Of a stretch of DNA of 64,000 bases, positions 9,010 through 31,306 are shown piece by piece. The notes under the pieces were generated by a model. The model did not search any database and was not told the origin of the DNA. It saw nothing but the letters and a program-made list of their open reading frames with translations. The first letter of the stretch is position 1. Each line of letters opens with the position of its first letter. The stretch lies in contig NC_134082.1 in NCBI RefSeq assembly GCF_000715075.1, forward strand, positions 57,623,466 through 57,687,465, written 5' to 3'. Origin of the DNA: Nicotiana tabacum (taxonomy: Eukaryota > Streptophyta > Magnoliopsida > Solanales > Solanaceae). The translations under genes were made by a program, and so were the position numbers.

Positions 9010-9072
9010 GAACTACGCTTGACCTGATTCCCATTTAAGAGGGAATATGTAGGCATCCTTATGGGTTCGGTC
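9010..9072 (+). other. Two-hairpin module, copy 1 (element A, after pol)
   Basis: Starts GAACTACG, 30 bp after the pol stop. Hairpin 1: ATTCCC (9027-9032) with GGGAAT (9041-9046). Then TGTAGGCA. Hairpin 2: ATCC (9055-9058) with GGGT (9063-9066). One of six copies in A and B with the same order of parts. Confidence 0.7.
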
Positions 9073-9109
9073 ATATCATAATAAAAATTTCATTTCCCCC
9101 GAGAGTAGA

Positions 9110-9335
9110 AATTGGGGCAAAATTTTGAGGAGGACAATCAAAATTCCGGAGCAAGTCCAGCCAACTCCATCGCAAGCCAGGAAGTCAGTAATCAGTCAAG
9201 AACTGGGGAAGAATTTTGAGAATGATTCTCAAAATTCCGAAAAAAAATTCAGCAAGGCCTATTATCTGCAAATAGTTAAAAAATCATCTACCAAACTAGG
9301 GCAGATTTTGAGGAGGACCCTCAAAATTCCCTAAG
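9110..9335 (+). repeat. ~91-bp tandem repeat with an inverted repeat in each unit
   Basis: Three inverted repeats at 9123-9143, 9214-9234 and 9306-9326, spaced 91-92 bp. The middle one has perfect 10-bp arms (TTTTGAGAAT and ATTCTCAAAA) around one base; the third has 8-bp arms TTTTGAGG and CCTCAAAA; the first has 6-bp arms. Each is preceded by a GGGGCA-like string and followed by TTCC. No coding value. Confidence 0.75.
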
Positions 9336-9640
9336 AGAGCTGCAATGACTTTGAGATGTGTTACAGTCACTAGTTCATCAAAATTACTTGATATATAATT
9401 TCTAAAACAACTCTATTCTTCAAATATTACATTTTTTCGAAAACTCTATTTCCATAAATAGTCAGGTGTCCCCTCAAAAAACTTATACTTTTTCTTTAAA
9501 CGCAAGCACATTTGACGTAAGGATAGCACTCACAAAACATGTATACACAAAGATAATTCACTATCAATCATGTCATCAGACATCGAATACATCTCCAGCT
9601 AAGAAATACATTACTATTATCTGCTACTCGCTCTTTGCAT
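9336..9640. other. AT-rich 3'-UTR stretch of A, no feature seen
   Basis: A short open frame (9466-9648) shows no recognisable motif and no homologue in element B. I see nothing else here. Confidence 0.5.
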
Positions 9641-10140
9641 GGGGCTAATCCCTGCCTCCCCACTTGCATGAGTCTAATCCTTGACTCCGTGAGGTTAATC
9701 CCTGCCTCCCTATTTGCATGAGTCTAATCCTCAACTCCATACTTGCATGAGTCTAATCCTTGACTCCGTGAGGCTAGTCCTTGCCTCCCCATTTGCATAA
9801 GTCTAATCCTCATGAGTCTAATCCCCGACTCCATACTTGCATGAGTCTAATCCTTGACTCTGTGAGGCTAGTCCTTGCCTCCCCACTTGCATGAGTCTAA
9901 TCCTTGACTCCATACTTGCATGAGTCTAATCATTGACTTTGTGAGGCTAATCCCTACCTCCCTATTTGCATGAGTCTAATCCCTGACTCCATATCCTTGC
10001 CTCCATACTTGCATGAGTCTAATCCTTGACTCCACACCTGCATGAGTCTAATCCTTGACTCCATGAGGCTAAGCTTGCCTCCATACCTGCATGAGGTTAA
10101 TCCTTGCCTCCATATTCACATGGGACTAAGCAATGTCCCT
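9641..10140 (+). repeat. Hairpin minisatellite in the 3' UTR of element A
   Basis: About 16-20 short units in two interleaved types, each a 5-bp stem closing an 8-nt loop. Type 1: GAGTC, loop TAATCCTT, GACTC (for example 9670-9687). Type 2: GAGGC, loop TAGTCCTT, GCCTC (9770-9787). Some units have GAGGT with GCCTC (one G-T pair), and the last unit has GGGAC with GTCCC around an 8-nt loop (10122-10139). Units are joined by CATACTTGCAT-like spacers. Stem bases change in complementary pairs. Tandem repeats in the 3' UTR are a known habit of Ogre elements. Confidence 0.85.
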
Positions 10141-10560
10141 TTTGTACAAATATTGCTCTATTTTATTATTTATCTGCTTTCCTATCGGGCTAAGATCAAC
10201 CCTCTTTTTTACTAACCCTTGCCTTTTAACATCATATTATTGTATATTATGGGCTGACATATTGACAATCTATCTGAAGGCATCATAGTCTAAAGTCACC
10301 ATCCTCATAGCCGGAAGACACCATGCCATGGCCTGAGGATCTCTCGAACTTGCATATCATTATTCAAAGGCGTCATGGTTCGGAGGAACCATTTTCATGG
10401 CTCGAGAACACAATTTTATGTCCTGCGAATCTATCACTAAACAATTCATGGCCCAAGATGTCATGGTCCAAGGACATCATCTTTAATCGTCCAAAGGAAA
10501 CCTTCATGGTCCAAAGAGAATCTGCATCATGTTTAAATTTTCGCAAATACACTTGTAGCA
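10141..10560 (+). repeat. Degenerate second hairpin series (CATGGTCC-like)
   Basis: Loosely repeated CATGGTCCAAGGACATCAT-like units with short complementary arms, such as GGTTC with GAACC around GGAG near 10378, and GTCC with GGAC near 10468. Too diverged for firm unit borders. Open frames here (10323-10601 plus, 10373-10561 minus) look accidental. Confidence 0.45.
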
Positions 10561-10691: not shown

Positions 10692-10758
10692 GAACTACAC
10701 ATGGACTGATTCCTGTAAAACCAGTGATATGTAGGCAACTCGAAGAACGGAGTTCGGC
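10692..10758 (+). other. Two-hairpin module, copy 2 (element A, before 3' LTR)
   Basis: GAACTACA start. Hairpin 1: ATTCCTG with CAGTGAT (one C-T mismatch, one G-T pair). Hairpin 2: AACTC (10737-10741) with GAGTT (10750-10754). It lies about 90 bp before the 3' LTR. Confidence 0.65.
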
Positions 10759-10835
10759 CTCTATCTTTCGAAACATCCCGTCCGGTCAAAATTGACCATC
10801 ATTTCTTTACCCGAAAACTTTTTCATCCTTCCCGG

Positions 10836-10850: not shown

Positions 10851-13108
10851 TGTTGAAACCCAAATTTTCCCTATATATTTTTAAATATGCATAAAAACCT
10901 TTAAAATATCATATACATTAATATATAAGCATACACAAGGTTTTATAATTTTTTCATAATTTTAAGGATTTAAATTGATTTATTTTCCCCCATTTTTATT
11001 CATAAAATCCCCAATAATTATTTCCCAAATTATTGTTATGATGACTTAGTCATTTAATTCCTATATTTATGCCAAAATATGGTTAATATATTTTTTTTAT
11101 GTATTTTTATAGTTGCATTTGGTATTTTTAGGCTAAATTGCATATAATTGCAATATTAGCCCATTTAATGTATAATCACATTTTTATATGCGTAAAATTC
11201 GTCCCTATATTTTTAAAATGATAAATATATATGTTAAATCATTTTTGGTACATATAATTATTTTTTTTGAAATTTTTTATTACTAATTATAAATTAAATA
11301 GTGAAAATTGGCTATTTAAAATATAGCTAGATTTGGCTTTCAATTGTACCCTAAATTGAACCCAATACCCAGCCCAATTTCAGGCTAAATTACCTGACCT
11401 AGAACCTATACACACTTACCCGACTCAGAACCCATTAGATCATGGCCGTTGATCTTTCAGATCAACGACCCGTATTGTTTCTTTCCTTTGTTAATCCTAC
11501 ACGACTCCTAACCGTAATCATTCTCTACACACTACTGCCCTCAAATCCTCTCATCTCCTCTCTTATCTCAACCTAACACTAACCCCCTTTCAATTTCCTC
11601 CATTCTCTGGTCTTCTCCGATGACCACCCTACGACCCCTAAGCCTCCAATGGCTCCTCCTTTGCCATACTCATCTTTTCTGAGGCCTTCAAAAAAATTCC
11701 GACTTATATCTAGGGTTTACTGTTTTGGCTGTTCAGGGCTGCTCCGGTGTGATTTCAAGCAAAATCACACCGTATTTGTTACGATCTTTGAGTTTCTAAG
11801 CAGGTTCTTCCATCTCTACTTGAGTTTCTTCTGAAACCCTAATTTTTGTTTATATATCCAAGATCTGTGCTATTTTAAATGATTCAAGTTTATTCCTTTT
11901 ATGTTTTACATTGTTCTTGAAATTGTTTTGCAAAAATCATCAATTTCAAGTTGTTTTCACTTTCTTCTAAAGTTAGGATTTTCTCAGAACTTCTTCTACA
12001 CTTTTTTTAAACCGATTTTTTACGTTCAAACTTCTATACTTTGCATATCTCGATTGAATCTATGTTTTTACTGCTTTTTCAACTCGCATATGTTAAAATC
12101 CCTAATATTTCTAGATTTCCTTATTTTGGTTCTATCTATTAGCATGACTACTCGATTCTTGTTAAGCTTCTGTGGTTACCTTGCTACGAATATGTTTTAC
12201 TGAGTTCTTAGCCGATCTTATACCACCTCTATATGATTATATTCATCTTGATTGTTGAAGACTTACCTCTTACTGTCGATATTGTTGACCCTACCTGTTT
12301 GCTACGTCTAGTTGTTTTTACTCTATTTATATGTTGAGTATGGAATTATAACTTACTCTTGATTGATTCTGATTTCATTATTTTATGGTTTAATTGAAAT
12401 ATCTCCTTTTAAACCCTAAATTTCTACCCCGTCTGTTTAAATTAGCTGATTCTCCTACCTTATTTGCTACGGTACTTTATTCTTACTGAATTATTCCCTT
12501 AATAAGAGCTTTTTGAAATTGGCCCTAATTGTCTACCCTATACTTACTGAATTTTAATATTTCTTTATTAGTTGTATACTTCCTTATTTATCACTTGTCT
12601 TAACGTTTGAGTTAATTCCCTTGACTTAAGGGGAGTACTTGTCTTGATTTCCTGATTAACTGATTTTAAGTTCCTTAATTACTAATGAACTTTGATTTTT
12701 TACCTTACTTACTACCTGCTTTCAAACTATAAATACCTTAGTCTTTAATTAACACAAGACACGAACACTCTTGGTTCAAAAAAAACTTTATGCTCTCTTT
12801 TTATGATACTTGTTATTGCTCTAAGTTAGTCGGCTGTAAGCCAAGGCTAACCATTTTGTTCTCCTGTTCTTTCACTTTGCTTAGAGTCTTATTTACTAGT
12901 ATGTTCTGGTTTTAATTCAAAGTTCCAACAATAATATGATTCTCTAATTGTTTTAGTTCATCCTATTTCTAGGTTGCTTCTATTTGAGGCTTTGTTGTGA
13001 AACTTGTAGTTGATGTTTACATTATTAGCAAGTTATATACTTCCCTTATTACCCCTCTGTGTGTATTTGAGCAAGTCTATACCAATTATCACTTACTTGT
13101 TATGTGCT
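10851..13108 (+). mobile_element. 3' LTR of element A, left part
   Basis: Matches 1351 to about 3630 of the 5' LTR, including the TATA box (12728-12735), with many substitutions. It stops at 13108 where element B is inserted and resumes at 43105. The last five bases (GTGCT, 13104-13108) are B's left target duplication. Confidence 0.92.
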
Positions 13109-15074
13109 TGTGAGCACGTGATTTTTTCCCTATATATGAATTATTCCCAAAAATTCAAACAAAATGATTTTTCTTGAATTTACAACTTCTGTGAATTTTA
13201 TGGCATTTTCTGGTAACTGTTGCATTTTATTTGTGCATTTTTAATTCATATAAAAAATATATAAAAATACATTTGCATTTAGGATTTAATTTCATATTTT
13301 TAGTATTAATTAGGGGATAAATTGTTTTTAGAATAAAATATGAAAAATAACAAAAATAGTTCGCTTTCGCATTTTATTGTTTAATTGTGAAATCGTCACG
13401 AAATAGTTTTTAAAAACAATTTTAGGCATTAATTAGTTTTAGTTTAATTGATTAGTTTAATTTTGCATCTTTATAAAAATAAATTAAAAAAATAAAAAAT
13501 TAAATATAAAATGACAAAGTGGAAAGCAAAAAGGAAATAAAAGTATTTGAAAAGAAAGCAATTAAAAAAAACGAAGGTTGTTTAATGAAAATTAGAACTG
13601 GGCCATTTTTAACCAGCCCAAGTCAGCACCCACGCCCAACCCCAAGATCGGACCATTCCCAGGCCCAATTTCCCTATACCCGATCCAGTTCCTAAACTAG
13701 CCGAACGACATCGTTTGGTTTGGGATTTAATCTCAGCCATTGAGTGCTTATGATCCAACAGTCCAGATGTGTTCCATCCTTTTAAGTAAAATTGTAATAA
13801 TTCACTTTACAAATTCAGAGACCAAACCTTCCATCCTCGTACTCACCACCACCCACCGTCAGACCGCCATGGTTTCGCCATCCTCCGCCGTCCGCCGCCG
13901 GCCGGAAATCGCCTCTGCCGGCGGCGAAGCTCCAAATGACCCAAAAATTTCAGCACCAGCTCTCATTTTCCTCCTATTTCCAACCCCCATAACCATCTTC
14001 CTCGAATCACAACCCAACTTCTCGAATATTCGTTCGAAGTTCAGATCCAAATCACAAACTCGCCCAAACCGGCCCAAATTTACATCACACAATCCTCAGA
14101 CCCCCCTCACCCCTAATCCCTAACCAAAATCCCTCGAATATTAGTGAAACTCAACGAATTGCAGATCTAGGGTTCATGGGTCGAGCCTGTTTTGGGAGGT
14201 TTTGAAGTCATTTGATGTTTGGTTAATGCTATATGCCTATTTTTGATGAAATAGGCAAATAACATCAACGAGAAATCAATTTCGACAAGGCGGCCTTATG
14301 GAGTCCGAATTCAGTGAGTGTTTCTTTTTGTTTTTTATCTTTTTTCTTTTTTGTTTTTTGTTGTTTTCATGAGTTGTGGTTCTTGATAGTTTAATTAAAT
14401 TTTGCTTTAAGTTTCTGCGTAATTCTATTTTTAGTCTAGCTTAATAATACAATTGTCATTTTATTTCTGTTAGAATAAATGTTAGGAATAATTGTGATTA
14501 CGCATTTTTTAATCATAGTTTGTTTTCAATCTCTATATTAATTCTTTATTCGAGATTAATTATGTTTTGGGTCCTTATGTGTTTTTTGATTTGGTGTTCA
14601 AAGGTTTTGCTGATTGTTGTTCGGTTATTTTAGTTCATCTTTGGCTTCAGTTTGATTAGTCGTCTAACTAGTTCTAATTAGTTTAGTTTGTTTTGGTTTG
14701 ATTAAGACTGAATTGGAATCTTTGGGAGACTATAATCGATTTGTAGTTAGGCTAACAGAGGGTTTGAGTCATTTAATTAGGGGTTTGAAGCTTAGCTTGG
14801 TTGGGTAGTAATTTCAGGGAGGAAATAAGGCTAGTTTAGGCATGGAAAAGGGTAGTTTTATTAAGAATAGTAATTTCAAAACCAAGATACGGGTAGTATA
14901 GGTAAAAGAACACCCTAGGGCCTTCTAGAATAGGACTTTAGTGTAGATTTCAGTAAACTTAGGGCACTAACTTGAGAAACAAGGCAGAAATTGAAGGACT
15001 AATAGGTGAAATTTGAAATTAAAAGAGGAAAAATGTGTGAGTGTCATCTAGAACATTCTACCCTATTTTTTGCA

Positions 15075-15081
15075 TATAAAA
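15075..15081 (+). promoter_or_regulatory. Candidate LTR TATA box (element B)
   Basis: TATAAAA followed by GGCAACC, kept at 41188-41194 in the 3' LTR. Use is inferred. Confidence 0.5.
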
Positions 15082-16881
15082 GGCAACCCCAATGCCTTCA
15101 TGGAGGGGGAGACACCCCTGAAAAAATTCCCCAAAGTTTGGGGAAGCCATCTAACTTCCCCCCCCCCCCCCAAGGAAGCTCCTCTCTGATTTTTCCGATC
15201 TGAACTTGAAGTTCAGAACATTCAAAATTTCCAAAAAAAAAAAACAACAGAAAATCTAATAGAAAAAACAAAAAAAATATAGTTACTATTCCATTGGAAT
15301 TTTCAGTTCAATTTCCAGTTTCCTAGTTCAAACAAAGTCTGATAAGCTGTGGTTTCAGAGAAATTTGAGATGGTTTCGCATGAGATTATGTCCAATTAAG
15401 CTAAGTTTGATTGAGCTTGGGTCTGGTTGAAAGTGTCGAGTTCATTCTGAGTGATTTTCAAGGTTATTTGGTCTGTTTTGAAGTTGATTCAAGTTGATCC
15501 ATCACTTCGTCTGATTTTCAAACTTCTTTCTGGGCTATACTTCGATTTTCTAGGCTGTGTATTTGTTGTTGTTTGGTTATCTCAAAGTGTTGTTGCCTGT
15601 TATCCACTACTGCTGATCTTTTCTTCTTCTTTGGATCTTCATATCCAGGTACATGACTCGAGATCTCATGGCTGTAACTTCACATGATTAGAACATGAAA
15701 TAAATTGAGATTGGTTCTATTGTTGTAAATTCACTACTCCAGTTAGCTTTGTTATATTTGAAATGTTCTCTATTGTGTTTTTTTTGTAGTAATTCGTTGA
15801 CTGTAATTGGACTTAGACATCAGCTTAATTGTGAGGATAAAATTAGTTCGGGTAATCATTTGAACTAGATTCGAATAGAGTTTGTTGTATCTCTTGGACT
15901 GCAATGGGACTGTATGAACAAATGGACTTTTAAAGTGAATTGGTTGTCTAAACTTGTTTTAAAATTCTGAAATTAGACAGTAGGCTGCAGTTTGAAAAGG
16001 CACGTTTCGTGATTAACTCAGTATGTTATCTAATTCAAGTGGATTGTTAGGCTAGTTACAATAGATATTTTCATTGGGCTGAGTTAATTCGATTATGGTT
16101 TCGTACAATGCAATTGGTAAGATCAAAAGGAAGGCTAACGTAAGAATTAGTTCTGCGTATTAATGCAGTGACATAGGCTAATCGTTCTAGTATTGTTGCT
16201 TCAGCCCGTCAATTAGTAGACTGTTTAGAATTTTAGACAAGTAGTCACCGCTGTGGTAGGGAACTGGACATTGATCGTAGCCGCCGAAGGTATATTTGTT
16301 TTGCTGGGACTCGATCCCAAGCTAGAAACACCACAGTTGTCTAAGTCATCATCCGCTCATGTTGGGCTTCAACTTTTAGCTAACCTGGTATAATTCAATG
16401 TAATATTAAGTAGGTTTGTTTTTTTTCAGAGATAAATAAGAATAGAAATCGTAGTCTCTTTTAGGTTGGCCTTTTAAATAAAAAATGAGACGAGCCTCGC
16501 CAAATAAAACTACAAATTGCGGGGCCCTCAATAAATATTGTCTTAATTTCTTAAAATTCGGGATGGGCCGTTTAGCGAATTTCACGGCCTTCCCTAAAGA
16601 TAATATGCGTTAGATTCTTTAGGCACGATTTTAATAAAATTATCTTCTTAAACTCGAGTGCACATCGATGCGACCCAAATCCAAGTCTCAACGAAGTCGA
16701 AATGTGTTAACAACCACGGGTGCATTGATTGCGACGTGGTTCGAGACGCATTTTCACGACGTTGCACCTCTTTTAAAATAATAACAAAAGTGGTTTACGG
16801 ATAAAGGGCACATAAGCTAGCATGTATTAAAATCAGATAAAATCAAATACAACAGTTGAGCGACCGTGCTAGAACTACGGA

Positions 16882-16912
16882 ACCTGGGAATGCCTAACAC
16901 CTTCTCCTGGGT
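16882..16912 (+). promoter_or_regulatory. Conserved LTR-end hairpin (element B, 5' LTR)
   Basis: ACCTGGGA (16882-16889) pairs with TCCTGGGT (16905-16912), two G-T pairs, around a loop with TGCCTAACACCTTC. In the 3' LTR (42864-42894) the right arm is TCCCGGGT, which turns one G-T pair into G-C. A's LTRs have the same loop on a different stem. Confidence 0.65.
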
Positions 16913-17126
16913 CAACAGAATTCCTTACTCGGATTTCTGGTTTGTGGACTGTTGACAGAGTCATATCTTTCCTCGGTTCAGGATACAACCGGTGACTTGG
17001 GACACCATTAATCTCCCAAGTGGCGACTCTGAAATCTTGATAATAAATCTCATTCTGATTATCCTTTAATTGGAAAAACTCCTTTATGCCCTCGCAGGTG
17101 TAGTGAAAAAGGAGGTGTGACAGCTC

Positions 17127-17144: not shown

Positions 17145-18202
17145 AATAAACCCAGAATCTCTGGTTCATGGTTTAAGAATTAGACCTTAGAATAATTGTT
17201 GTGTTGGCTTTATCTGATCTCCTTACATGTTTCATGCTAAATGTGCTAAATGCTTTACTGCTTTGATATTATCTGAATTGTATATAAGCTGTGCCGAAAC
17301 CCTTCTCAATTCACCTCTGGGGATGTGCTTACTGGTTGAGACTCCCTATTCTGTTAGTGTCATACCCTGAAATAAAAATAGGCTCGGATAAGTTGCAAAG
17401 CCGGACGATCTCGCGGGTCCCCGGTACGCTGCCCCCTCCTCGACTCGAGTTGTCCGCTCGAGTGCACTGTTTAGAACACATACCTAGGTTTTGAACCTAG
17501 AATAACTTGACTTCATGCCGGATTCCTAGTAGGAGCGCATAATTGCATCATGCTGCATTTGACTTAGGGGACTCAACACATGCGTTGGGTCCGTCTAGGA
17601 CTAGCAGCCTGAAATGAAAAGACCACCCTGCTGCATCCTACTTGTTCTGTACATATAATTGTTTCAAACCAGCATGTTGACCGGATTTTGAATCTCGGGA
17701 ATGTTGGGAAAATTGAGAAAAAGAGGAAAAGAGAAAAAGAGAGGAATAGCAGTTAGGGAGTTAATTGATTATTTTAGAAAAACCAATGACCAAATACTGT
17801 CGAAACTCTACCGAAATTTTGAGAAAATGGAAAAAGGAAAATATTTTATTTTAATAGTTTGTTTTACTAAAAAGCAATGGAAAAATAGAAAAAGAGTCTT
17901 TTATTTTTAGAAAGTTGTTTGTTGAAAAAGAAAAGAAAAAGAGTCTTTGTTTTAGTTTGGGAAAAAATAGGTTGTTTATTGTTTGTTGAAAATAAAAAAG
18001 AAAAGGAAAGTCGTTATTTTGTCTTGTTTTCAAAAATAGAAAAGGAAAAATAGTTTGTCTTGCCATGGAAAATGAAAAGAAAGAGCCTTGTTTTCAAAAA
18101 TATAGTTAGTTTCTTTGCCCGAACTACGCAGGTTTGATTCTCACGGGGCGTGAGATACGTAGGCAACCCCCATCGGGTCCAACCTCCCCTTTTCAAAAAA
18201 TA

Positions 18203-18254: not shown

Positions 18255-18539
18255 ATTTTCGTCGTAAATAAGTTAGGTGATGCTGTTTTTGTTAAAAATA
18301 GCCAAATATTCCCGAAAGGGACGCTAGAAGGCTGACTTTGCAAAGACGGCCATTTTTGGTCATTTTGATTTTTGATTGGTTGACTCTCACAACCTTAAAA
18401 TCTTCGTTCTTGGGAGTGCTGAAAGGCCGTGTTTGAAAACCGAGTCTGTCATTTTAAATTTGGAAAAGGAAATAGTTAATTTTGTTTTGAGTCAAATAAA
18501 GTTTTGTTTTTGATTAAATCACCTTAATAAATGTGCAGG
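17145..18539 (+). other. Leader of element B: hairpin, A-rich tract, hairpin module 3, (AT)22
   Basis: No gene. Hairpin at 17443-17463: ACTCGAG and CTCGAGT closing TTGTCCG, the partner of A's 6255-6277. An A/G-rich tract covers 17701-18110. Two-hairpin module copy 3 is at 18121-18182: TCTCACG (18139-18145) with CGTGAGA (18149-18155), then ACCC (18166-18169) with GGGT (18175-18178). A perfect (AT)22 microsatellite is at 18209-18252. The leader ends in TGTGCAG just before the ORF1 start, an acceptor-like sequence also seen in A. Confidence 0.7.
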
Positions 18540-20587
18540 ATGAGCACGATGCAAAACGAATCTTTCTCAATAATGACTAAAATCCCTTTCGAGTTGCGGC
18601 TGTGGTGGAACGATTTAGGCAACGAAGGACAAGACGATGTCAAGAAATATCTGAAAGGTCTTACGAGTTTGTTGGAAATCAAGCCTCGGGGTGATATTAT
18701 TAGAGCGTTGGTCACTTGTTGGGACCCAACGCACAATGTCTTCCACTTCTCAGATTTTGAGCTCACCCCAACTCTGGAGGAAATCGCCGGGTACCTCGGA
18801 AATGCTGAGGTTCTGTTAAGAGGAAAATATCTGGTTGCTCCAAGAGCCCTCACGGTGCATCGGTTTTTAGACTCATTAAAGATACCCAGGACAGTCCATA
18901 ATCTAGATTAGGCAAAAGGCTTCTGCACTCTGCGCTTCATATACGACAGGTATGCCCACGTGGGAGTGTTTCACAAGACGAACATCAAGTTATGCAGTAA
19001 AAATAACCGTCAAAAATGGGATGAGCACAGACGGGTGGCTTTCATGATAACCTTTTTGGGCCTCTTGGTGTTCCCAAGGAAAGATGAGAATATTGATATA
19101 AAAGTAGCTGGGGTCGTCAGTACCTTGCTTACTCAAGATGAAAGCACTCTTGCGCCTATGATCGTGTCTGACATTTTCCGAGCTCCCACTGCCTGCAAAG
19201 CCGGAGGCAATTTTTTTGAGGGGTGTAACTTGTTGTTGCAAATGTGGATGACCGATCATCTATGCCATCGTTCCCAGCTCTTGAGTTATGGTTCGTCTGA
19301 CAAAACCTGTATAGGAGAGTTTTACACAAGGAGTGACGGGGTTAGTCTGCCTGAAGGAGTAACAGCGTGGATATCATACTTTTGTACTCTCACGGACAGT
19401 CAGATACAGTGGACATTGGATGGTTGCCTGTTGAAGAAATCATATACATGCCAGTAGCTAGGTCGCATTTTCTTTTGATGGGACTTAAGAGCATCCAACC
19501 TTATGCTCCATGTCGGGTTTTGAGACAACTCGGGAGATGCCAAATAGTTCCACGGGAGGAAGATCTTAGTGCTCAAGTAATTGAGATTGGCCCTGACGGA
19601 CAGTTTCCCGAGGCAAAAGTCCGCGGGATTTGGAATGAATGTCAATATCTACAAGCAAATACTTGTGTGCAGGATCAGGCCAAAGGAGAAATGTCGCTAG
19701 AATACCTCGCATGGTACAGAAGAGAACTTGAGCATCAGAGGCCAGCTAAAAGACCCCACATCCAGGATTTCACGGAATCATCACACGAAAAATCGGGTTG
19801 GCTAGCAAAAGAAGAAGGCTATCAGGCTGAAATCGGCAAGTTGAAACAAAAGATTGGAGCTCTGAAATTTGAGAACAGTGTGCAAGTTGCTGCTGATCAG
19901 GGAGAATAGAACAGGTTGGCCCAATAAAATGAGGCACTTAGGGCCCAAATCCAGCAAATGAGGATAGCTGCCAATAACCAACAAAGGAGCCGGTCGGACG
20001 AGCGGTTGATAAAAGGGTTGAAAAAGGAAATCAGTGAGTGCCGGGATGAGCTGGAAAAATCCGAAGGCACCATAGCGGGACTCCGGGCACAGTGGGTAAA
20101 AATAACAGAAGAACGCACCCATTACATGCAACAATTAAAGAAGGATCATGAAAAGACCATTGCTAGTCTGAAAAGAAAAGTGGTCACCCTTGAGGATAAG
20201 GCAGCTAAGCAAGCTAAAGCTTTTGAGACCGAAAGTGGACACTGCTATGACTTACTGGCCCGAATGGAAGTAGAAATACAACAGCTGTAGGATCAGCATC
20301 TTCAGGATTCTCATGTGTTGGAGGCTCGCAATAATCAAGTAAGGCGATTGCTTATAGAAAAGGGTCGAACAAGAGACAGGATTGAGACCATTGCCCACGC
20401 CATCCTTAGGAGATGTCGGGCATGTGAAGACATGACCCGCACTACCTTCTTCTCGGCAGTGATGATTTATGTCAAGCGAACCATGTATGAGCTGGAGCAA
20501 CTTGAAAGGGATTTGGCACCTAAGCCCGCGGCGAGGCCGAACGATGCCCCGCGGGCACCCATTTTTGAAGCACTAATGTATTCATAG
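18540..20587 (+). pseudogene. ORF1 of element B (extra ORF upstream of gag)
   Basis: About 680 codons from ATG 18540, chosen because A's ORF1 starts at the equivalent place. The N-terminal 280 residues hold the conserved segments also seen in A, including W-D-P, F-x-F and E-L-T-P-T-L-E-E-I, a pattern like the plant mobile domain. From about 19800 on the protein is rich in K, E, Q and L and looks like a long coiled coil. Broken by stops at 18909, 19907, 20288 and one near 19925, and by a frameshift near 19360. Function unknown; extra ORFs before gag are known for Ogre elements. DUF7745 is my recollection of the family name, not a search result. Confidence 0.8.
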
Positions 20588-20814: not shown

Positions 20815-20995
20815 AACAAATGAAGAGAGAAAGAAAGAAGAAAAACAAGAGAGGATGGAAAAAGAATAAGAAAAGAGAAGATCAGAAAAACAAGAAAGGA
20901 ATAAAATAAAGGAGGAAGGAAAGGGAAAAGGAAAAAGGAGAAAAGAAAGAGAGAAAAGAAAGAGAAAAGAAAATAAAAGAAAAGAGAAATCTTAC
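20815..20995 (+). repeat. Polypurine (GA-rich) tract before gag
   Basis: About 180 bp almost wholly A and G on the plus strand, lacking a fixed unit. A similar tract follows pol at 28584-28769 and a looser one precedes ORF1. Minus-strand open frames rich in F, S and L through these tracts are artefacts. Confidence 0.75.
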
Positions 20996-21221
20996 AGTTG
21001 GAACTAAGGAAATGCCGGGATGACGCATGCAGTCGAACAAACGCATAATAGAAATGGTTAATTGTATAGATGCATTCATGCCCAATGTGCGGTTATCGAA
21101 TCTGTTAAAACCTAACCGTTAACGAAATTGTTGTCTAAATGTGTGAGTCCAGGTAGGTGGTTAGTTGTTTGGCATACTGGCAACTCATCCATACAACACC
21201 CGGTCTAAAGATAAAGCGAAC

Positions 21222-22930
21222 ATGACTGGCCCGGAATCTGATACGAGTATTGTTGACCCATCGAAAGAAGTAGAAGAAATGGACGTTCATGCAATGAGGG
21301 AAGAAATGTATAAGTTGAAACAACAGATGGCTGAAATGTACCAAGCCTGGGCGAAGGGGCATCCACCGCCAATTTATCCCGCTATCCCCGCTTATATCCC
21401 ACCATTAGCTCAGCCTCGGGAGCCACCCACTGTGAATTCATCTCCAGCATTTCCACTTTACCAACAATGCCAAGGCACCACTTCTTATACATCACAGGCT
21501 CCTCCATCCAAACAAGTCTCATACCCTCTTCCACCAATCACTCCCGTTTTTGTGGCACCTCCGCCTGCTACCCTACACCGATCCCCCAATGTACCTCTGT
21601 TCCAAACGCATGACAACCAGTATTACCCCCCTGAGCCTACCTTCAAAGTTACAGAACCCTACTCTTATACCCCTCATCTTGATCTCACGGTAGACACTGA
21701 GAAGCCGCCCAAAAACCCTGAGCAGGAGGAGATGATCAGAAAGGTCAAAAGCCTGGAGCAATCATTCCGAGACATGAGGGGGTTAGGGGGCCAAGTAAGT
21801 GTGGCCTATAAAGATTTATGTCTGTTCCCAGATGTTCAGTTACCGGACGGGTTCAAGATACCTAAGTTTGATTTGTACGACGGGCATGGCGACCCGGTAG
21901 CACATTTAAGGGGATTATATAGCAAGATGAGGGGAGCAGGAGGGAGAGATGAATTGCTGATGGCATATTTCAGCCAAAGTTTGAGCGGATCGGCGTTGGG
22001 ATGGTACACTAGACAAGACCATTGCAGGTGGTACACTTGGGATGACTTGGCCCAAGCCTTTGCCTGTCAGTTTCAATACAATCTTGAAATCATCCTAGAT
22101 CGACTGTCATTGACAAAGATCGAGAAGAAGCCCGGTGAGAGATTTTGAGAATATGGGTTCCGTTGGAGAGAGCAAGCGGCAAGGGTTGACCCTCCGATGA
22201 AAGAGAGTGAAATGGTTGATTATTTCTTGCAGGCTTTGGAGCCCACCTATTTTGGTTATTTGGTGTCAGCAGTGGGCAAGTCCTTTAATGAAGTCGTGAA
22301 AATGGGAGGCATGGTTGAGGAGGGACTCAAATCCAATAAGATCATGAGCTATTCAGCAATCAAAGCAACTACCCAAGCCATTCAAAACGGCACTGGGGTG
22401 TGCTTGGGAAGAAGAAGAAAGAAGAGGTTGCAACTGTCGAATCCGGAGTATGGTCCAGGACTAGAAACCCTTCACCCTATTACAACCAACCCAGACCCCA
22501 CCACCCAAATTATCCGTATACCCCATATGGCCCTCCTCAATACTATTATCCACCATCAGAGCCACACTTTTCCGTTCATCATGCCCAAACTTATACCCAT
22601 CCTCTGGCTCACGCGCAATGGCGTGCGCCGGCTACCCAAAACATATACCCAACACCACAAAACACATATCCACACCCGAGGACTTATAGGCCAGGATTCG
22701 GCTTCCACCCAAACCAAGTTTTCAGAAACGAGAGAATACAGAAACAAAAAACATTCACTCCGCTGGGAGAATCCTATACCACTCTTTTCCACAAACTGAG
22801 ACAGGTAGGCCTGTTGAACCCGGTTGAGGCCAAAATGCCAAATCCCCTTCCTAAAAATCTGGACCATTCAGTGAGTTGTGAGTATTGTTCGGGGGCTCCC
22901 GGACATGATACTGAGAATGTTGGAAATTGA
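21222..22930 (+). pseudogene. gag of element B
   Basis: Likely start ATG 21222, in the frame that leads into the capsid. Order: acidic N-terminus with a short M/K/Q-rich helix, a Pro-rich linker (about 21360-21660), then the retrotransposon gag capsid region (about 21830-22390) with the D-G-H-G-D-P and A-L-x-W-Y motifs. A Tyr/Pro/His-rich region follows (22460-22720), then a degraded zinc-knuckle-like C-x2-C near 22876. Stop TGA at 22146 interrupts the capsid; the frame shifts near 22390. Gag normally forms the cytoplasmic particle that packages element RNA. This copy cannot make it intact. Confidence 0.82.
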
Positions 22931-24754
22931 AAACTACTATGCAAGAGCTTATTGACACAAACAAGATCGAGGTTCAAGCCCTGGAGGCACCCAATATTAA
23001 CCAAAACCCGTTGCCAGTGCATCATGAGGCCAACATGATTGAACTAATACATAAGGGAGCAGAGCTTAAGAACCCCTCACAGGGAGTCATGATGATCCAT
23101 TCTAGTGAAGACAAAGTGAATGAAAAGTCAGCTAGTGTGAAACCCGCGGTTCAGCTGAAAGGAATAGACAACAAGCCAGTTGTGGTGATGGGGAAAAGAT
23201 CGTCCGTTGTTGCGAAGAAACCAGAGTCGATCAAGGTAGTGGTTTGAAGAGTATCAAGCACACCTGCGGTAGTCGTGAAGGGGGCTCACATAGAACTAGT
23301 TGTTATAAAGCCAGTAACCCAGTTACCAGTGATTGACAGTAAAACCGTTCCGTGGAAGTATGAACAGGTAGTTGTGACCTATAAGGGGAAGGAAATCAAA
23401 GAGGAAGTCTGTGAAACACAAGGTTTAACTCGCTCGGGACGTTGTTTTGCCCCCGAAGAGTTGAGAAAGGCTAGGGCTCCCAAGGAAAATCCGGCGCCAG
23501 TTAAGAAAGCTATTACGGAGGAAGAGGAAGAAGAGTTCTTGAAAAAGATGAAAATGCAAGATTATTCTATTGTTGAGCAGCTAAGAAAAACGCCAGCCCA
23601 AATCTCGTTGCTTTCATTGCTTATCCACTCGGATGAACATCACCGGGCTCTGATGAAGATATTGAACGAAGCTCATGTCCCCAATAAAGTTTCAGTGAAT
23701 CATTTGGAGAAAATCGCAAACAAAATCTTTGAGGTAAACAGAGTGACATTTTCTGATGATGAATTGCCTGTGGAGGGTACAGAACATAATAGAGCTCTTT
23801 ATTTGACCGTGAAATGTGAAGATTTGGTAGTCACTCGAGTACTGATTGATAATGGGTCCAGTGCCAATATTTGTCCTTTGTCTACATTGAACAAGTTGAA
23901 GGTTGATGATGACAGAATTCATAAGAATAGCATCTGCGTTCAGGGGTTTGATGGTGGTGGTACAGACACAGTGGGTGACATCATACTTGAATTGACAATT
24001 GGTCCGGTCGAGTTCATCATGGAGTTTTAGTGTTAGACGTGGCAGTGTCTTATAATCTTCTATTGGGGCGACCATGGATCCACGCTGCCAAAGCGGTGCC
24101 TTCTACACTACATCAGATGGTCAAATTCGAGTGGGATAGACAAGAGATCGTAGTACATGGGGAAGACAACATGAGCATTGTAAGTGATGCCATCGTACCC
24201 TTCATAGAGACTGATGATGATAAAGGGTCGTGGGTTTACCAGGTTTTCGATACAGTCTCAGTAGAAAAGGTTCCTAAGGGGAAAAGCGTCCTGATCCCCA
24301 GAATAACAGCTGCAACTGTCATGGTAGCCTCTAAAATGTTGAAAAATAGGTTTGTTCCAGGCAAAGGGTTGGGTGCTGATTTGCAAGATATTGTTCAGCT
24401 AGTTTATTTGCCCAAGAATCTGGATACCTTTGGGCTGGGTTTAAAGCCTACGACAGCGGATGTAAGACGAGCCCGCAAGATGAAGAAAAGAGGCTGGGTT
24501 CTTCCCAAACAAATTCCTCGTCTGTCCAGGTCCTTCGTCAGGCCAAGTATCGGAAAGCAATTATTGGCAAAGGTGTCTGGTCCGCTGATTGATGCGGATG
24601 GGAACTTGGAGAAAGGGCTTGAGAAGGTATTTGCTGAGGTGAACATGGTTGAGGCCAGGGAAAGTTCAAGCAAAGCATATATACAGTACATCGGGCCACA
24701 TGCTAATGTCAGCAACTGGGAAGCCACTCCTCTTCCATCTCGGAGGGAGTCGTG
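22931..24754 (+). pseudogene. Protease region of element B with G-patch-like segment
   Basis: Continues the gag-pol polyprotein. A spacer leads to an aspartic protease with catalytic D-N-G-S-S-A (about 23848-23865) and the closing L-L-G-R-P-W-I motif (about 24057-24078). A stop at 23245 and a frameshift at about 24028 interrupt it. After the protease, about 24325-24400 reads M-L-K-N-x-F-x-P-G-K-G-L-G-x(2)-L-Q, a G-patch-like motif, a glycine-rich nucleic-acid-binding module known next to protease in some retroelements. The frame stays open to 24755, where a splice donor lies on the stop codon. Confidence 0.82.
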
Positions 24755-24937
24755 GTAGTGGGTTTTGTTTTCCTCTTGTTCACCTGGATTATTCCAGGGT
24801 TTGTAATTCAGTTGCTATGTTCCGTCCGTTTGGATGAGTTAAAACCCTGTTGTCTTTACATTCAATGAAATGCAATTCCTTTTCCTTCTTAAGTCCTAAT
24901 TTTGTTTCCATTTCTTTTTCTTTTCTTTTCTGTACAG
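24755..24937 (+). other. Probable 183-bp intron between protease and RT
   Basis: Donor TCGTG|GTAGTG at 24755; acceptor after a pyrimidine-rich run, TGTACAG|TTCTCT, ending 24937. The upstream exon ends after the second base of a codon and the downstream exon supplies the third, so splicing makes an unbroken frame. The only stop between the two frames (TAG 24756-24758) lies inside the donor. Ogre elements are known for a spliced intron at this place. Confidence 0.8.
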
Positions 24938-27900
24938 TTCTCTTTATGCTGATATCGATGACATGACATGCATGAGGAATCTTCGAGCCAGTTTTAAAAG
25001 CCAATCTAATTCAGAAATAATAGTGCAAGAAATCGAGTGTCATGATGAGGTGGGATATGATGATGACAAAGCCTATGAGGAAGTTAGCAAAGAATTAAGT
25101 CACTTTGAAGAAAAACCCAAACCTAACCTAAATGACATAGAAGCAGTTAATCTAGGGGACCCAGACAATGTTCGTGAAACTAAAATAAGTGTTCATCTGG
25201 AGCCACAACACAAGGAGGGGATAATCAAAGCATTGTTCAAGTACAAGGATGTTTTTGCATGGTCGTATGATGATATGCCTGGTCTAAGTACCGATTTAGT
25301 GGTTCACAAATTACCCACTGACCCGACATTCCCTCCTGTCAAGCAGAAGCTGAGAAAGTTCAAAATAGACATAAGTGTAAAGATCAAAGAACAGATTACC
25401 AAGCAGTTCGATGTGAAGGTCATTCGGGTCACGCGGTATCCCACCTGGTTAGATAATGTTGTGCCTGTGCCGAAGAAAGATGGAAAGACCAGGGTGTGTG
25501 TCGATTATCGGGATCTTAACAAGGAAAGTCCAAAAGACAATTTTTCGCTACCGAACATCCACATATTGATTGATAATTGTGTCAAACATGAGATTGGTTC
25601 TTTTGTGGATTGTTACACGGGTTATCATCAGATTTTAATGGACGAGGAAGATGTTAAAAAGACGGCATTCGTCACGCCATGGGGAACATACTGCTATCGG
25701 GTCATGCCGTTTGGTTTGAAAAATGCTGGGGCAACTTATATGAGGGTAATGACAACAATATTTCATGATATGATACACAAGGAAATCGAGGTATATATGG
25801 ACGATGTGATTGTAAAGTCTAGACAGCAATCTGACCATGTCAGAGATCTGAGAAAGTTCTTACAAAGGTTTTGCAGGTACAATCTCAAGCTTAATCCTGC
25901 AAAATGCGCGTTAGGGGTGCCATCTGGAAAGTTGTTGGGGTTCATAGTCAGCCGCCGGGGTATTGAACTGGATCCATCAAAAATCAAGGCCATCCATTAA
26001 TTGCCACCTCCGAGGAACAAGACCGAGGTGATGAGTTTGCTGGGAAGATTGAATTATATCAGCAGGTTCATCGCCTAGCTCACAACAACTTGTGAGCCTA
26101 TCTTTAAGCTGTTAAGGAAAGACACTGCGGTCAAATGGACAAACGAATGCCAGGAGGCGTTTGATAAGATAAAGGGGTATTTTTCAAATCCACCTGTGTT
26201 GGTTCTGCCAGAACCAGGGAGACCTTTGATTCTATATTTAATGGTGTTAGACAATTCGTTCGGCTGTGTATTGGGTCAACATGATATCACGGAAAGGAAG
26301 GAGCAGGCCATCTATTACCTCAGCAAGAAGTTCACACCCTAAGAGGTTAAGTATACTCATCTTGAAAGGACATGTTACGCCCTAACTTGGGTGGCACAGA
26401 AGCTGAAACACTATTTGTCATCTTATACTACTTACCTCATATCTCGTTTGGACCCGTTAAAGTATATCTTTTAGAAGCCTATACCCACAGGGAGGCTTGC
26501 AAAGTGGCAGATCCTGCTCACAGAGTTTGACATTGTCTACGTGACTCGGACTGCGATGAAAACACAGGTCTTGGCGGACCATCTGGCCGAGAATCCGGTT
26601 GATGAAAATTATGAACCTTTGAAGACTTATTTCCCTGATGAAGAGGTGATGCATGTTGAAGAATTGGAACAAGTTGAGAAGCCAGGATGGAAACTTTTCT
26701 TTGATGGGGCCGCAAACATGAAAGGCGTGGGAATAGGAGCGGTGCTTATTTCTGAAACAGAGCAACATTACCCTGTTACAGCTCAGCTTCATTTTATTGT
26801 ACGAACAACATGGCAGAATATGAAGCATGTATCTTGGGGTTGAGATTAGCTGTAGATATGGGTGTCCAGGAAGTCTTGGTCATGGGTGACTCGGACCTAC
26901 TGGTATACCAAATTCAAGGAAAATGGGAAACACGAGACTTAAAGCTTATACCGTACCGATAATGTTTGCATGAGCTTTGTCAGCGGTTTCACTCAATAGA
27001 GTTACAACACATTCAAAGGATTCATAATGAAGTGGCCGATGCGTTGGCTACTCTGGCATCAATGTTACACCATCCGGATAAGGCTTACGTGGACCCTTTG
27101 CAGATTTAGGTCCGCGATCAGCACGCTTATTGTAATGTAGTGGAAGAGGAACTTGACGGTGAGCTGTGGTTTCATGACATCAAGGAATATATCAGGATTG
27201 GTGTGTATCCGATACAGTCCACAGGTGATCAGAAACGAACAATTCGACGGTTGGCACGTGGGTTTTTCCTTAGTGGAGGAGTGTTGTATAAAAGAACTGC
27301 AGACCTCGGGTTGTTGAGGTGCATGGATGCGAGGCAGGCCACATCTATCATGACTGAGGTACATTCGGGTGTCTGTGGACCGCATATGAGCGGATATGTT
27401 TTGGCAAATAAGATCCTACGGGAAGGTTACTATTGGCTTACTATGGAGCGAGATTGTATCAGTTCCATACGTAAATGTCATCAGTGCCAAATACATGGAG
27501 ACTTGATTCATTCTCTGCCATCAGAACTACATACGATGTCCGCACCATGGCCTTTCGTTGCCTGGGGCATGGATGTTATTGGGCCAATTGATCCAACAGC
27601 GTCAAATAGGCACAGGTTTATTCTGGTAGCTATAGATTATTTTACCAAATGGGTGGAAGCTAAAACGTTCAAGTCTGTGACCAAGAAAGCTGTGGTGGAT
27701 TTTGTGCATTCGAACATTATTTGTCGGTTTGGAATACCGAAGGTGATTATCACAGAAATAGGGCTAATCTTAATAGTCATCTGATGAAGGAGACATGTGA
27801 GCAGTTCAAGATTATTCATCGTCATTCCACTCCATACCGCCCTAAGGCAAATGGTGCGGTTGAGGCAGCCAATAAGAATATAAAGAAAATACTCCGGAAA

Positions 27901-28412
27901 ATGGTAGAAGGATCTAAACAATGGCATGAAAAGCTGCATTTTGCATTGTTGGGATACCGCACCACTATTCGTACCTCGGTGGGGGCAACTCCTTACTCTT
28001 TAGTGTATGGCACGGAAGCAGTGATACCCGCAGAAGTGGAAATCCTGTTCTCCGAATCATAGTAGAGGCTGAGATCGATGATGATGAATGGGTGAAAAGC
28101 CGCCTTGAGCAGTTGAGTTTGATTGACTAGAAGAGATTGGCATCAGTGTGTTATGGTCAACTGTACCAACAAAGAATGGCAAGAGCATACAACAAGAAAG
28201 TGCGTCCAAGGAAGTTTGAAGTCGAACATCTAGTATTGAGACGTATTTTGCCTCATTGGGCAGAAGCAAAAGGAAAGTTTGCTCCAAATTGGCAGGGACC
28301 ATTTGTCGTAACCAGAGTGTTGTCTAATGATGCACTATATTTGATAGACATAGAAGGAAAATGTGTAGAAATGGCCATCAATTCCGATGAAGTCAAGAGA
28401 TACTATGTATGA
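24938..28412 (+). pseudogene. pol of element B: RT, RNase H, second RNase H, integrase
   Basis: RT spans about 25300-25990 with V-P-K-K-D-G, the R-V-C-V-D-Y-R-D-L block and catalytic Y-M-D-D (about 25794). RNase H follows at about 26200-26540, then a second RNase H-like domain at about 26685-27060 starting F-F-D-G-A. Integrase has its H-H-C-C zinc region at about 27360-27500 and its core from W-G-M-D (about 27560); a 1-base frameshift near 27750 destroys the second catalytic Asp. The C-terminus ends S-D-E-V-K-R-Y-Y at 28412. Stops at 25998, 26076, 26340 and 26472, more further on, and a frameshift near 26800. Dead copy. Confidence 0.88.
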
Positions 28413-28784
28413 TTTCTTTATTTTGATTGTACTTGTTTGTATTTGGCATACTTTAAAGATTGAAATGACGAAGGCGTTTTGTTCTGCTATCTAAACACTT
28501 TTACCCCTTGTCATCCCCTTTGAGCCTTAGTTATTTTCTTTCATATCCCTCTTTTGGAATCAATGGCACCATTAAGAAATGCGAGTGGGGAAGAAAAAAA
28601 AATGAAAAGAAAACGAAAAAGAAAGAAAAGTGAAAAAAAAGAGGAGAAAAGAAGGAAAAGAAAAGAAGAGGAAAATTGAAAGTGAAAAGAAGAAAGAAAA
28701 GAAAAGTAAATGAAGAAAAGAAAGGAAAAGAAGAGCAGAAAAGAAAAAAAAAAGAAAAAAACAACAATGTAGTCTCTATGAAGT
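28413..28784 (+). repeat. Start of B 3' UTR with a second polypurine tract (28584-28769)
   Basis: After ~170 bp of unremarkable sequence, 28584-28769 is nearly pure A and G on the plus strand. It ends directly before hairpin module copy 5. Confidence 0.7.
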
Positions 28785-28845
28785 GAACTACGTTTGACTT
28801 GATCCCGCAAGGGTACGTAGGCAGCCTCGCTGAGGTTTAGTCATA
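28785..28845 (+). other. Two-hairpin module, copy 5 (after pol of B)
   Basis: GAACTACG start. Hairpin 1 is short: CCC-GCAA-GGG (28804-28813), a GNRA-type tetraloop. GTACGTAGGCA follows. Hairpin 2: CCTC (28825-28828) with GAGG (28832-28835). Same position relative to pol as copy 1 in A. Confidence 0.68.
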
Positions 28846-30030
28846 CCAAAATAAAATCCAAAAGTCCCCAAGCAAGAAGCTGGGGCAGAAATCGTGGTTG
28901 TTGTAAGAAATCTGATTTCGAAAGTTGTAATTTTAACCCATTTTGAAATTATTTTGAGCCTTTCATACCCTTTCTTTCTAGCCCCGTCCAAAGCCCACAT
29001 TACGGTCCAAAGAAAGACCTTCTGATAAGTCTCTGAGAAATGCCAAGTCAAGCAGGTAAAGGTAATTCATGTCTGGGGCAACACTCTGGTTGAAGCAAGA
29101 AAAGAAAAAAGATAAAAATGAGAGAGTCTTATCGGTGAAAACCTGCACAGGCACGGTAAGGCGACGAAAGTTGAGAGAAAGAATAAAATGAGAGAGTCTT
29201 ATTGGTGAACACCCTCGCGAGCACCTTGAGGAGAAAGTGAGTTGAGAAATTATTAATGGAGAAAGGTCTGTTGGTGGAAAATTGTTTCGAGGCACCACAG
29301 GATGAACAAGGCTAAGGTTTGGATAAAGTAATCAAGTGATGGAAATTCTGGGGCAACAAAGGGTGGCGACCAAGAGTTGGTTAGTTGGATAGATTGGGCC
29401 GATTAGTCTGAAATGCATGTCATGACCATTGGTACCAGCTGTTCCGGTCAGATAAGTTTCTTTCCCTTTTTCTTTTTAACAGTCATCTAGTTTTGGATTC
29501 TTCTTATCCTTAACTCGTAAACTCATTGCATTTCATTTTCTTTGGGGGTTTTATCCGTCTAAAATGTTTCAATGTTAGTTTTGTTCAAAGCAAGTGGAAA
29601 GGTATTTAAACACTCACTACCAGATTCCGGAAAGTGAAAAGCACGATGTAGTCAGAGCATGTCAAAAACAGTATGATGAAAGGTGGAATACATGGAATCT
29701 CCAGAAATGTCGTCGATGGAATGATTGGGAAATGTCGGGGGAAGTGCAAAGGTTCATAAAAAGGGTCAGAGGTGTGAAACAACAACATGGGTACAGAACA
29801 CTCGGTTTGTCAGAGTCAGGGGTTCGAAGATCAGTTAGAAAGTCAAAGCGGTTCAGGGCCAGTTCGGGAAGCCAGTCGCAACAAAACAATGTAGCAGAAA
29901 GATCTCCAACAAGAATGCCACCAACTAACCACCATTTTTGAACTAACAAATTTTCTTTGATTAAAACAGGGGCAGAAAAGTTCGTTTGTTTCAGAGGAAC
30001 CCTCCGTGGAGAAAAGCAGTCAACAAACAG
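28846..30030 (+). other. B 3' UTR, upper part, with a ~72-bp imperfect triplication
   Basis: GAGAGAGTCTTATYGGTGAA-like units start near 29120, 29192 and 29262, each followed by a small palindromic core and GCAC. GGGGCA strings occur near 28881, 29073, 29348 and 29965. An open frame at 29594-29941 lacks an ATG start and a recognisable motif; I do not call it a gene. Confidence 0.55.
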
Positions 30031-30043
30031 GTTTGATTTTTGA

Positions 30044-30870
30044 TTTTCAGGACCCTCCTGGAAAATGGGACCTAGTTTAAAGTTCAGAAATAACATAATC
30101 TAGCATAAATGTATCCCAAAAGAATATAAGTTAGCTTAGAAGTCGGCATGTTCAAGAAAGGTCAATTAGGAGTTTCCAGGACCCTCCTGAATAATGGAAC
30201 TTAGCTTTAAGATGTCAATTAGATAACAACATTTAGCGTAAACTCTATTGTAGGGTAGTATAATTCAGACATGAAAGTTGTCACCCTTAAGATAAAATTT
30301 GAACTTTGATTTTCAGGACCCTCCTGCATAATGGGGAGTAGTTTAAAGATCCTCTTAGATAGCAAGATTTAGCAGAAGTCACACCCGTAGAAGATATAAC
30401 TTAGATTTTAATCCAACGTTTAGTTAAGAGTTGTGAGGAGCCCGACTGGATAACAGAGGAATACATTTCAAGTTTGAAGTCAGGAGCCCACCAGGAGAAT
30501 AGAGGAATACATTCAAGTTTTGAAGTCAGGATCCCGCCTGTAGAACAGAGGTATTACAATTCAAGTTTTAGGTTTAACTCTTATTAACATCCGATAACAT
30601 GTACCCAGTTTTCCAAACTAGGGAAAAAAGTTTTCTTTGTTCGATTTATTTTGTGAAGTAAGGAGCCCGCCTGGATAACAGAGGAATACATTCAAGTTTA
30701 AGTTCAGCAGTTAGGAGCCCGCCTGGATAACAGAGGAATACATTCAATTTCAAGATTCAGAAGTCAGGAGTCCTCCTGGATAACATAGACATACAGTTCA
30801 AGTTTCAGTAATTGGGAGCCCGCCCAGATAACAGAGGAATACATTCAGTTCAAGATTATTCAAGTTCAGC
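30044..30870 (+). repeat. Hairpin array in the 3' UTR of element B
   Basis: Two sub-arrays. First, three copies of CAGGA-CCC-TCCTG (30048-30060, 30177-30189, 30314-30326); the first arm pair extends to 9 bp with one G-T pair. Second, about eight copies (30434-30860) of AGGAGCCCGCCTGGATAACA followed by GAGGAATACATTCAAGTTT. Most copies pair CAGG with CCTG around a 6-nt loop; one has TGGG with CCCA (30813-30826). Sequence unrelated to A's array but in the same place. Confidence 0.75.
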
Positions 30871-31306
30871 AATTTGGAGAGAAGAAATAACATCTTAGTT
30901 CACGATTTGAAGTAACAACAATGAGTTTCACCAAGGGAACGCAAGACAACAAGGAAGTACAAGATGCAGTTGGAAAATTTCAGATAGGACTTTTGTAATT
31001 CATAGTCCATAGATTAGGCTAGCTTCTTTTATTTTGACATGGTGTAATAAGGAAGGTCAGTGAGCAGCAGCAGCAGCAATCGCAGTGAAATCACAGCTCC
31101 TGGTAGTCCCAGCTACCAGACACTCTCGAACTACACTAACCTGATTCCTGTTTAGCCCAGGATATGTAGGCAAACTCTGAAGCAGGGTGCAGTCAGCTCT
31201 TTAAAAAATGCTTCACGTGGAATATTCAAATGGGCAAAAATCACTCGTATTTGTTCACTTATCTTTGCACGAAAACTCTTCATGATTCCGAGCAAAGAGG
31301 GGCAGC
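30871..31306 (+). other. End of B internal region: module copy 6 and polypurine tract
   Basis: A CAG-rich run lies near 31060. Module copy 6 is at 31128-31195: TCCTG (31146-31150) with CAGGA (31158-31162), TATGTAGGCA, then ACTC (31174-31177) with GGGT (31185-31188). The polypurine tract AGCAAAGAGGGGCAGC (31291-31306) abuts the 3' LTR. Confidence 0.75.

Follow-up and report, generated by a model that had tools for sequence, protein, structure and literature searches.

The 64,000-nucleotide (nt) stretch of Nicotiana tabacum contig NC_134082.1 analysed here (the window) contains two nested long terminal repeat (LTR) retrotransposons, referred to as elements A and B, which carry six copies of a module of 60–75 nt. 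Comparison of its copies makes us highly confident that the module is a selected RNA pseudoknot. Read from the 5′ end, it consists of GAA, the 5′ strand of helix P1 (CUACR, pairing with YGUAG), 1–3 nt, the 5′ strand of a pseudoknot helix (PK), UGAU, the P2 hairpin, UA, the 3′ strand of P1, GCA, the P3 hairpin, the dinucleotide NC and the 3′ strand of PK. An earlier note on this DNA had described two hairpins set between conserved unpaired blocks. Our analysis does not agree with this description, as the module has four helices, P1, P2, P3 and PK, and the crossing helix had been overlooked. PK joins the segment before UGAU with the segment after the P3 hairpin (hairpin 2 of the earlier note) and, because P1 and PK cross, the fold is a pseudoknot. 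The blocks GAACTAC and GTAGGCA, taken to be unpaired, pair with each other, CTACR with YGTAG, and this pairing is P1.

All six copies lie on the plus strand. Element A holds A1 (9010–9073, class III; PK TGACC/GGTCA, 67.8 bits), which follows the pol remnant, and A2 (10692–10760, class IV; 58.2 bits), which lies 146 nt before the polypurine tract (PPT) and has a bulged P2 and an imperfect PK. Element B holds the other four, namely B1 between the primer-binding site (PBS) and the first open reading frame, ORF1 (18121–18185, class I; PK AGGTT/AACCT, 73.4 bits), B2 between ORF1 and gag (20748–20812, class II; PK TGGTC/GACCG, 70.8 bits), B3 after pol (28785–28843, class III; PK TGACT/AGTCA, 63.0 bits) and B4 situated 166 nt before the PPT (31128–31195, class IV; P1 CTACA/TGTAG, two mismatches in PK, 53.5 bits). 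The PK of B2 was missed by the automatic P3 register and is present both in a relaxed scan and in the MAFFT alignment. The bit scores are those of covariance model R1, which was built from 32 copies including all six, and the recovery of the six by the model is therefore partly by construction. The pattern GAACTAC..YTGATY..GTAGGCA matches six times in the window and never in 100 shuffles, and in the relaxed scan (up to four mismatches) the six copies stand at the top with scores of 10–17, the next candidate scoring 1. All six positions given in the earlier note are thereby confirmed. The covariance model reveals no seventh copy in the window at E ≤ 0.5.

The host elements form a three-level nest at 1351–45301, in which a LINE-like (long interspersed nuclear element-like) element is inserted in the 3′ LTR of element B, and element B in that of element A. 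The 5′ LTR of element A (1351–5822, plus strand) is followed by a PBS-like site at 5831, and its 3′ LTR is split by element B into 10851–13109 (plus strand) and 43105–45301. Likewise, the 5′ LTR of element B (13109–17123, plus strand) is followed by a PBS-like site at 17127, and its 3′ LTR is split by the LINE-like element into 31307–31720 (plus strand) and 39765–43105. The LINE-like element itself (31721–39764) shows DUF4283, zf-RVT and RVT_3 domains and has no covariance-model match. ORF1 of element B (18531–20587, plus strand) is broken by stops and matches DUF7745 (PF24924) above the cut-off at 18912–19454, where the plant mobile domain (PF10536) stays below it. The gag-pol region of element B (21165–28412, plus strand) consists of several open pieces with RVT_1 and integrase H2C2 domains; its gag pieces match no Pfam family and gag is named by position. 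Element A has no intact ORF. The extra ORF upstream of gag in element B, LTRs of about 4–4.5 kb and PBS-like sites of the form TGGCGACTC..GGGGA suggest that the hosts are Ogre-like (Tat) Ty3/gypsy elements, long LTRs and such a PBS being what we take as Ogre marks. ARAGORN finds no tRNA gene in the window. Tandem repeats of about 46–52 nt occupy 30433–30857 between B3 and B4, and the corresponding interval of element A (9627–10129) holds a different array with units of 29, 79 and more. Purine-rich tracts of GAAA type lie directly after B2 (20820–20990) and directly before B3 (28591–28759), and A-rich runs occur downstream of module II in other copies too.

Support for the structure comes mainly from a sequence-only MAFFT alignment of 32 copies, hand-picked for diversity and including the six window copies and a copy named L143, described below. 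In this alignment, 93.7% of 601 base-pair cells are paired as compared to 81.4% in shuffles, and at most 38.4% are paired when the partners are slid by 1–3 columns. Double-changed cells number 104 against 33.8 ± 6.2 in shuffles, and the covariation score is 0.510 against 0.269; neither this score nor the share of paired cells is reached by any of 500 shuffles. Double changes are present in all five PK pairs, four of the five P2 pairs and all four P3 pairs. RNAalifold, given only the alignment, returns PK, P2 and P3, of whose 13 pairs 12 have double changes; P1, which crosses PK, is omitted. A second alignment, of 57 distinct model matches taken from whole regions, has 94.1% of its cells paired and 174 double-changed cells against 54.0, though it was fitted to the model and is thus biased towards it. 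The proposal of the earlier note that stem bases change in pairs, as in a selected RNA structure, is supported by the double changes in PK, P2 and P3.

PK and P1 were also checked separately. For PK, 99 distinct copies were used, all found by the exact letters GAACTAC, TGAT and GTAGGCA, and their P3 register was set without looking at PK. Pairs 1–4 of PK are formed in 83, 82, 85 and 81 of the 99 copies, as compared to 62%, 64%, 66% and 81% with partners from another class; the fourth pair alone is uninformative, because cross-class partners reach 81% there. A Watson-Crick PK of 4 base pairs (bp) forms with the copy's own tail in 64 of 99 copies, with tails of other classes in 15.6% and with shuffled tails in 6.8%. 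It is weakest in class L (1 of 6) and class IV (7 of 24). The window copies A2 and B4, which precede the 3′ LTRs, have a damaged PK, whereas in other class IV copies it is partly intact (12 of 24 if G-U pairs are allowed). Within class II, a path is visible from GGTC/GACC through the G-U forms GGTC/GATC and GATC/GGTC to GATC/GATC. Useful variation in P1 is confined to the last pair, which across the genome is G-C in 45,120 copies, A-U in 10,590, G.U in 2,573 and A.C in 2,216, which is an odds ratio of 84 relative to independence, and this covariation is partly one class-wide change (class IV). In P3, G-U pairs exceed A.C (53 against 16), where the register was chosen for pairing, which favours such an excess. 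One class III copy (L299, 30–125, minus strand) has a far longer P3 stem, TTTAGA/TCTAAG, which was missed by the automatic register and adds to the indications of P3 as a real helix.

The module occupies regular places in its host elements. Twenty ten-kb regions were picked around listed copies, two of which (L255 and L256) overlap, so that some places count twice. The covariance model gives 51 matches above chance in them (E < 1e-6), one of which is seen twice in the overlap, and another at E 0.18. All 49 of the above-chance matches in the 19 regions with a PBS, PPT or coding marker are on the sense strand, and no model match was seen inside any protein match in the 20 regions. Pieces of ORF1 are present in eight of the 20 loci (L247, L250, L255, L256, L258, L259, L263 and L265). 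Distances were taken from start to start, to protein or motif matches. The first module follows the PBS by 760–1946 nt in 12 of the 13 PBS-bearing loci, the window value being 994, and precedes ORF1 by 372–854 nt in six of seven loci with a matched ORF1 start, with 410 as the window value. Module II lies 158–223 nt after the end of ORF1 in all seven loci with that end matched (161 in the window) and 302–484 nt before the first matched gag residue in all 14 gag loci, representing 13 places (417 in the window). Module III comes 130–385 nt after the end of pol in five of five loci (373 in the window), and module IV 165–173 nt before the PPT in three of three (146 and 166 in the window). The classes thus follow the element, with class I after the PBS, II before gag, III after pol and IV before the PPT. 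In L257 and L260, where ORF1 is unmatched, three modules stand between PBS and gag. Checking positions relative to ORFs with a covariance model had been suggested in the earlier note, and the outcome is a regular and not a random placement. Its assignment of the copies to ORF flanks holds for element B; for element A, the position after pol is read from remnants.

The module is also found in elements with hardly any coding sequence. Four loci (L251, L252, L254 and L262) have long DNA stretches in common and give no tblastn match to the protein pieces of element B at 1e-4. Between PBS and module III, their longest open frames are 238 (L251), 101 (L252) and 109 (L254) residues, the first lying in DNA that is related to L248's gag region, and the longest frame of L262 up to module I is 176 residues. 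L251, L252 and L254 have model matches at I, II and III, in that order. Coding was checked in these four 10-kb loci, the other gene-poor copies being short stretches, in six of which modules I and II are too close to each other for an ORF1 between them. The P3-to-PK columns, which were unseen when these copies were chosen, are 0.948 identical among 19 module-I copies and 0.985 among 13 module-II copies, as compared to 0.675 and 0.748 in the flanks. None of 298 (I) or 357 (II) flank windows reaches the identity of the module, and 17 of the 19 rows of the module-I alignment have a common register. L248 resembles the gene-poor loci in isolated islands of 65 nt, which correspond to module II. The module in gene-poor elements is thus an island more conserved than its flanks. 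Because near-codeless elements keep the module, a cis RNA role that is not tied to the neighbouring ORF appears likely, rather than translation of the element's own ORFs.

In the host assembly (3,996,098,646 bases, 700 contigs) the exact pattern matches 48,591 times (24,655 + 23,936), and the reversed pattern does not match at all. Among the bacterial-contig matches listed and screened by eye, L143 is the sole copy recognised outside the host genome. It lies at 2827–2899 of a plant-like scaffold of 4160 bases within a Solirubrobacter assembly, which is likely plant contamination; the scaffold is not significantly similar to the window in nucleotide sequence (best E 0.32), and the assembly has no second model match at E ≤ 0.001. 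L143 has the full module, with PK GGACTT/AAGTCC and a P2 of up to 9 bp, and scores 54.4 bits, partly by construction since it is one of the 32 model rows. A PBS lies at 3514, about 690 bases downstream of the module, which is apparently, by eye, inside an LTR. In viral contigs, a loose pattern gave apparent chance matches among those listed, a tighter one three matches judged by eye to be chance and a third none, and a protein query found no relative.

However, several observations weigh against our reading of the module. With G-U pairs allowed, a 4-bp PK forms in 77 of 99 copies with their own tails, as compared to 69.8% with cross-class and 30.9% with shuffled tails, which does not discriminate between classes. 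At the last P1 pair, A.C is about as common as G.U, as neutral decay predicts, and in PK pairs 1–4 of the sampled copies A.C (35) exceeds G.U (20), as in dead genomic copies. P1 is near-invariant, so that, except for its last pair, its support is complementarity, and most copies were found by the letters of P1 themselves, as also by those of the "invariant" GAA, TGAT and GCA. Of five covariation measures on the 32-copy alignment, two separate less well from shuffles: 14 pairs show a double change as compared to 10.6 in shuffles, 7 of 500 of which attain 14, and 33 further pair types are present as compared to 29.9, with 27 of 500 attaining 33. Since the copies of a class are related to each other, double-changed cells cannot be counted as independent. 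In eight copies, folding energies are ordinary relative to shuffles (z −1.70 to +0.65), and the minimum-energy structures are often unlike the model, the folding program being unable to represent pseudoknots. As to placement, the thirteenth locus with a PBS, the coding L250, is without a module I before ORF1 at E ≤ 0.5. In the gene-poor loci L251, L252 and L254, the class III matches are the three weakest true matches (44–47 bits), two of them gapped at GCA/P3, and no class IV match is present. Gene-poor copies were selected by mutually similar cores, and modules in non-coding elements could be carried as baggage; this last possibility is disfavoured because of the conservation island. As to function, none of the evidence tells export apart from packaging, decay control or catalysis.

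Taken as a whole, these results are in our opinion best explained by a selected pseudoknot that serves as a repeated cis recognition tag for export or packaging of the element RNA, an explanation which we favour tentatively, at a little under even chances. The repetition in non-coding gaps, the near-invariant P1 and the conserved unpaired bases suggest a protein-binding site. The module is carried in the sense orientation by Ogre-like elements, and in their RNA a trans-acting protein, which might be a host export factor or the Gag of the element, would bind the near-invariant P1 together with the unpaired GAA, UGAU, UA and GCA. Such a tag would let the long element RNA be exported or packaged, and gene-poor derivatives would retain it, being dependent on the same service in trans. 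That the role is export or packaging specifically is put forward with somewhat more reserve.

An obvious alternative is that the module drives cap-independent or re-initiated translation of the following ORF on a multi-ORF RNA. The constant position of module II 302–484 nt before gag (14 of 14 loci) and of module I 372–854 nt before ORF1 (six of seven) would agree with such a role, as would the purine-rich tracts after B2 and before B3. However, no recognised ORF follows modules III and IV, loci L251, L252 and L254 have retained I and II, and III more weakly, though no gag or pol is matched in them, and L257 and L260 have an extra module where ORF1 is unmatched, which makes this alternative unlikely. 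Of the roles named in the earlier note, translation of the flanking ORFs is weakened by the same ORF-less elements, and processing or packaging may apply. A 3′ splice site, considered from the spacing of CTGAT and TAG|G, was dropped, since P2 and not a pyrimidine tract lies between the two and no ORF comes after modules III and IV. Likewise, the Pol III box B likeness of GGGTTCGATC was dropped, as those bases form P3 and PK.

A new self-cleaving ribozyme, cutting the polycistronic RNA between ORFs, is improbable. The helix order equals that of hepatitis delta virus (HDV)-like ribozymes, about a dozen unpaired bases are near-invariant (most of them within the search pattern), and 91 of 99 copies have a C immediately ahead of the PK 3′ strand, where the choice of register favoured C. 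However, no Rfam family, ribozymes included, matches at E ≤ 5 in the 20 copies tried, four copies, including B3, have T in place of this C, and the HDV loop-3 core was not seen. Only slightly less doubtful is the broader view of an undescribed compact RNA class of HDV-like topology, possibly catalytic or ligand-binding, that would serve a major plant retrotransposon family as a repeated processing or identity signal kept by gene-poor parasites; if it were true and the class catalytic, the modules would split the element RNA at the borders of the ORFs. Exonuclease-resistant RNA (xrRNA), by which the modules would stall 5′–3′ decay at ORF boundaries and preserve downstream fragments, is slightly less likely than a translation element. 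A compact pseudoknot placed in intergenic and 3′ untranslated regions would suit this function, and intergenic xrRNAs are known in plant RNA viruses (PMC6299227), but the helix order differs from that of viral xrRNA and the 20 of 99 copies tried in Rfam gave no match. Finally, a DNA-level or homogenised repeat without an RNA role, be it a protein-binding site or a recombination hot spot, would account for the near-invariant P1 letters, the 48,591 copies and the fact that A.C equals G.U in frequency in P1 and PK. Paired changes in PK, P2 and P3 and the single orientation speak against it, as does the excess of G-U over A.C in P3 (53 to 16), though the register favours pairing there. A DNA site was dropped because of the paired changes, and of all the alternatives this one is the least credible.

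At the gathering threshold, none of the 4227 families of Rfam 15 matches anywhere in the window, and none matches the 20 of 99 copies searched at E ≤ 5. In line with the earlier note, no description of the module was found in the literature searched, which covered few subscription papers, and an earlier description is possible. HDV-like ribozymes have the order P1, P2 5′ strand, P3 hairpin, P1 3′ strand, P4 hairpin, P2 3′ strand, and the module shows the same nested double-pseudoknot order of crossing helices. It differs in having no Rfam match and no visible catalytic core in loop 3, and its junction C, which is not invariant, adjoins the PK strand directly. In viral xrRNA, the pseudoknot is presumably formed by the segment L2B in the P2 loop. 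The module has no such L2B pairing, as its PK 5′ strand lies between P1 and P2 and not in the P2 loop, and in it a hairpin intervenes between P1 and the 3′ strand of PK. What it has in common with plant xrRNA-D, which is built of P1, P2, a pseudoknot and conserved L1 and L2B, is to be a small pseudoknot that is also intergenic (PMC6299227). Retrozymes, the hammerhead-bearing non-autonomous retroelements of plants, are alike in that a structured RNA is kept by non-coding plant LTR elements (PMC4918200). However, no hammerhead is present in the window at Rfam thresholds, and the module lies outside the LTRs, being apparently inside one only in L143.

In some plants, LTR elements account for up to 90% of the genome (PMC12786077), and according to what the same review says of it, export of their RNA has not been directly studied in plants. 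Export and packaging of long plant LTR-element RNA are hardly known, and the module would offer a concrete RNA handle on them, having 48,591 exact-pattern copies in a single genome and regular places, and being kept by gene-less elements; the covariance model can be used to scan other plant genomes. The nearest analogues by description are the musD transport element (MTE) and the RNA transport element (RTE) of intracisternal A particles (IAP), cis-acting structured RNAs of mouse LTR retrotransposons, of which the MTE contains pseudoknot and kissing-loop motifs (PMC12786077). By this analogy, the module may be an export element like the musD MTE and the IAP RTE, which differ in belonging to animal elements, whereas the Ogre-like elements carry several small copies per element across their non-coding gaps.

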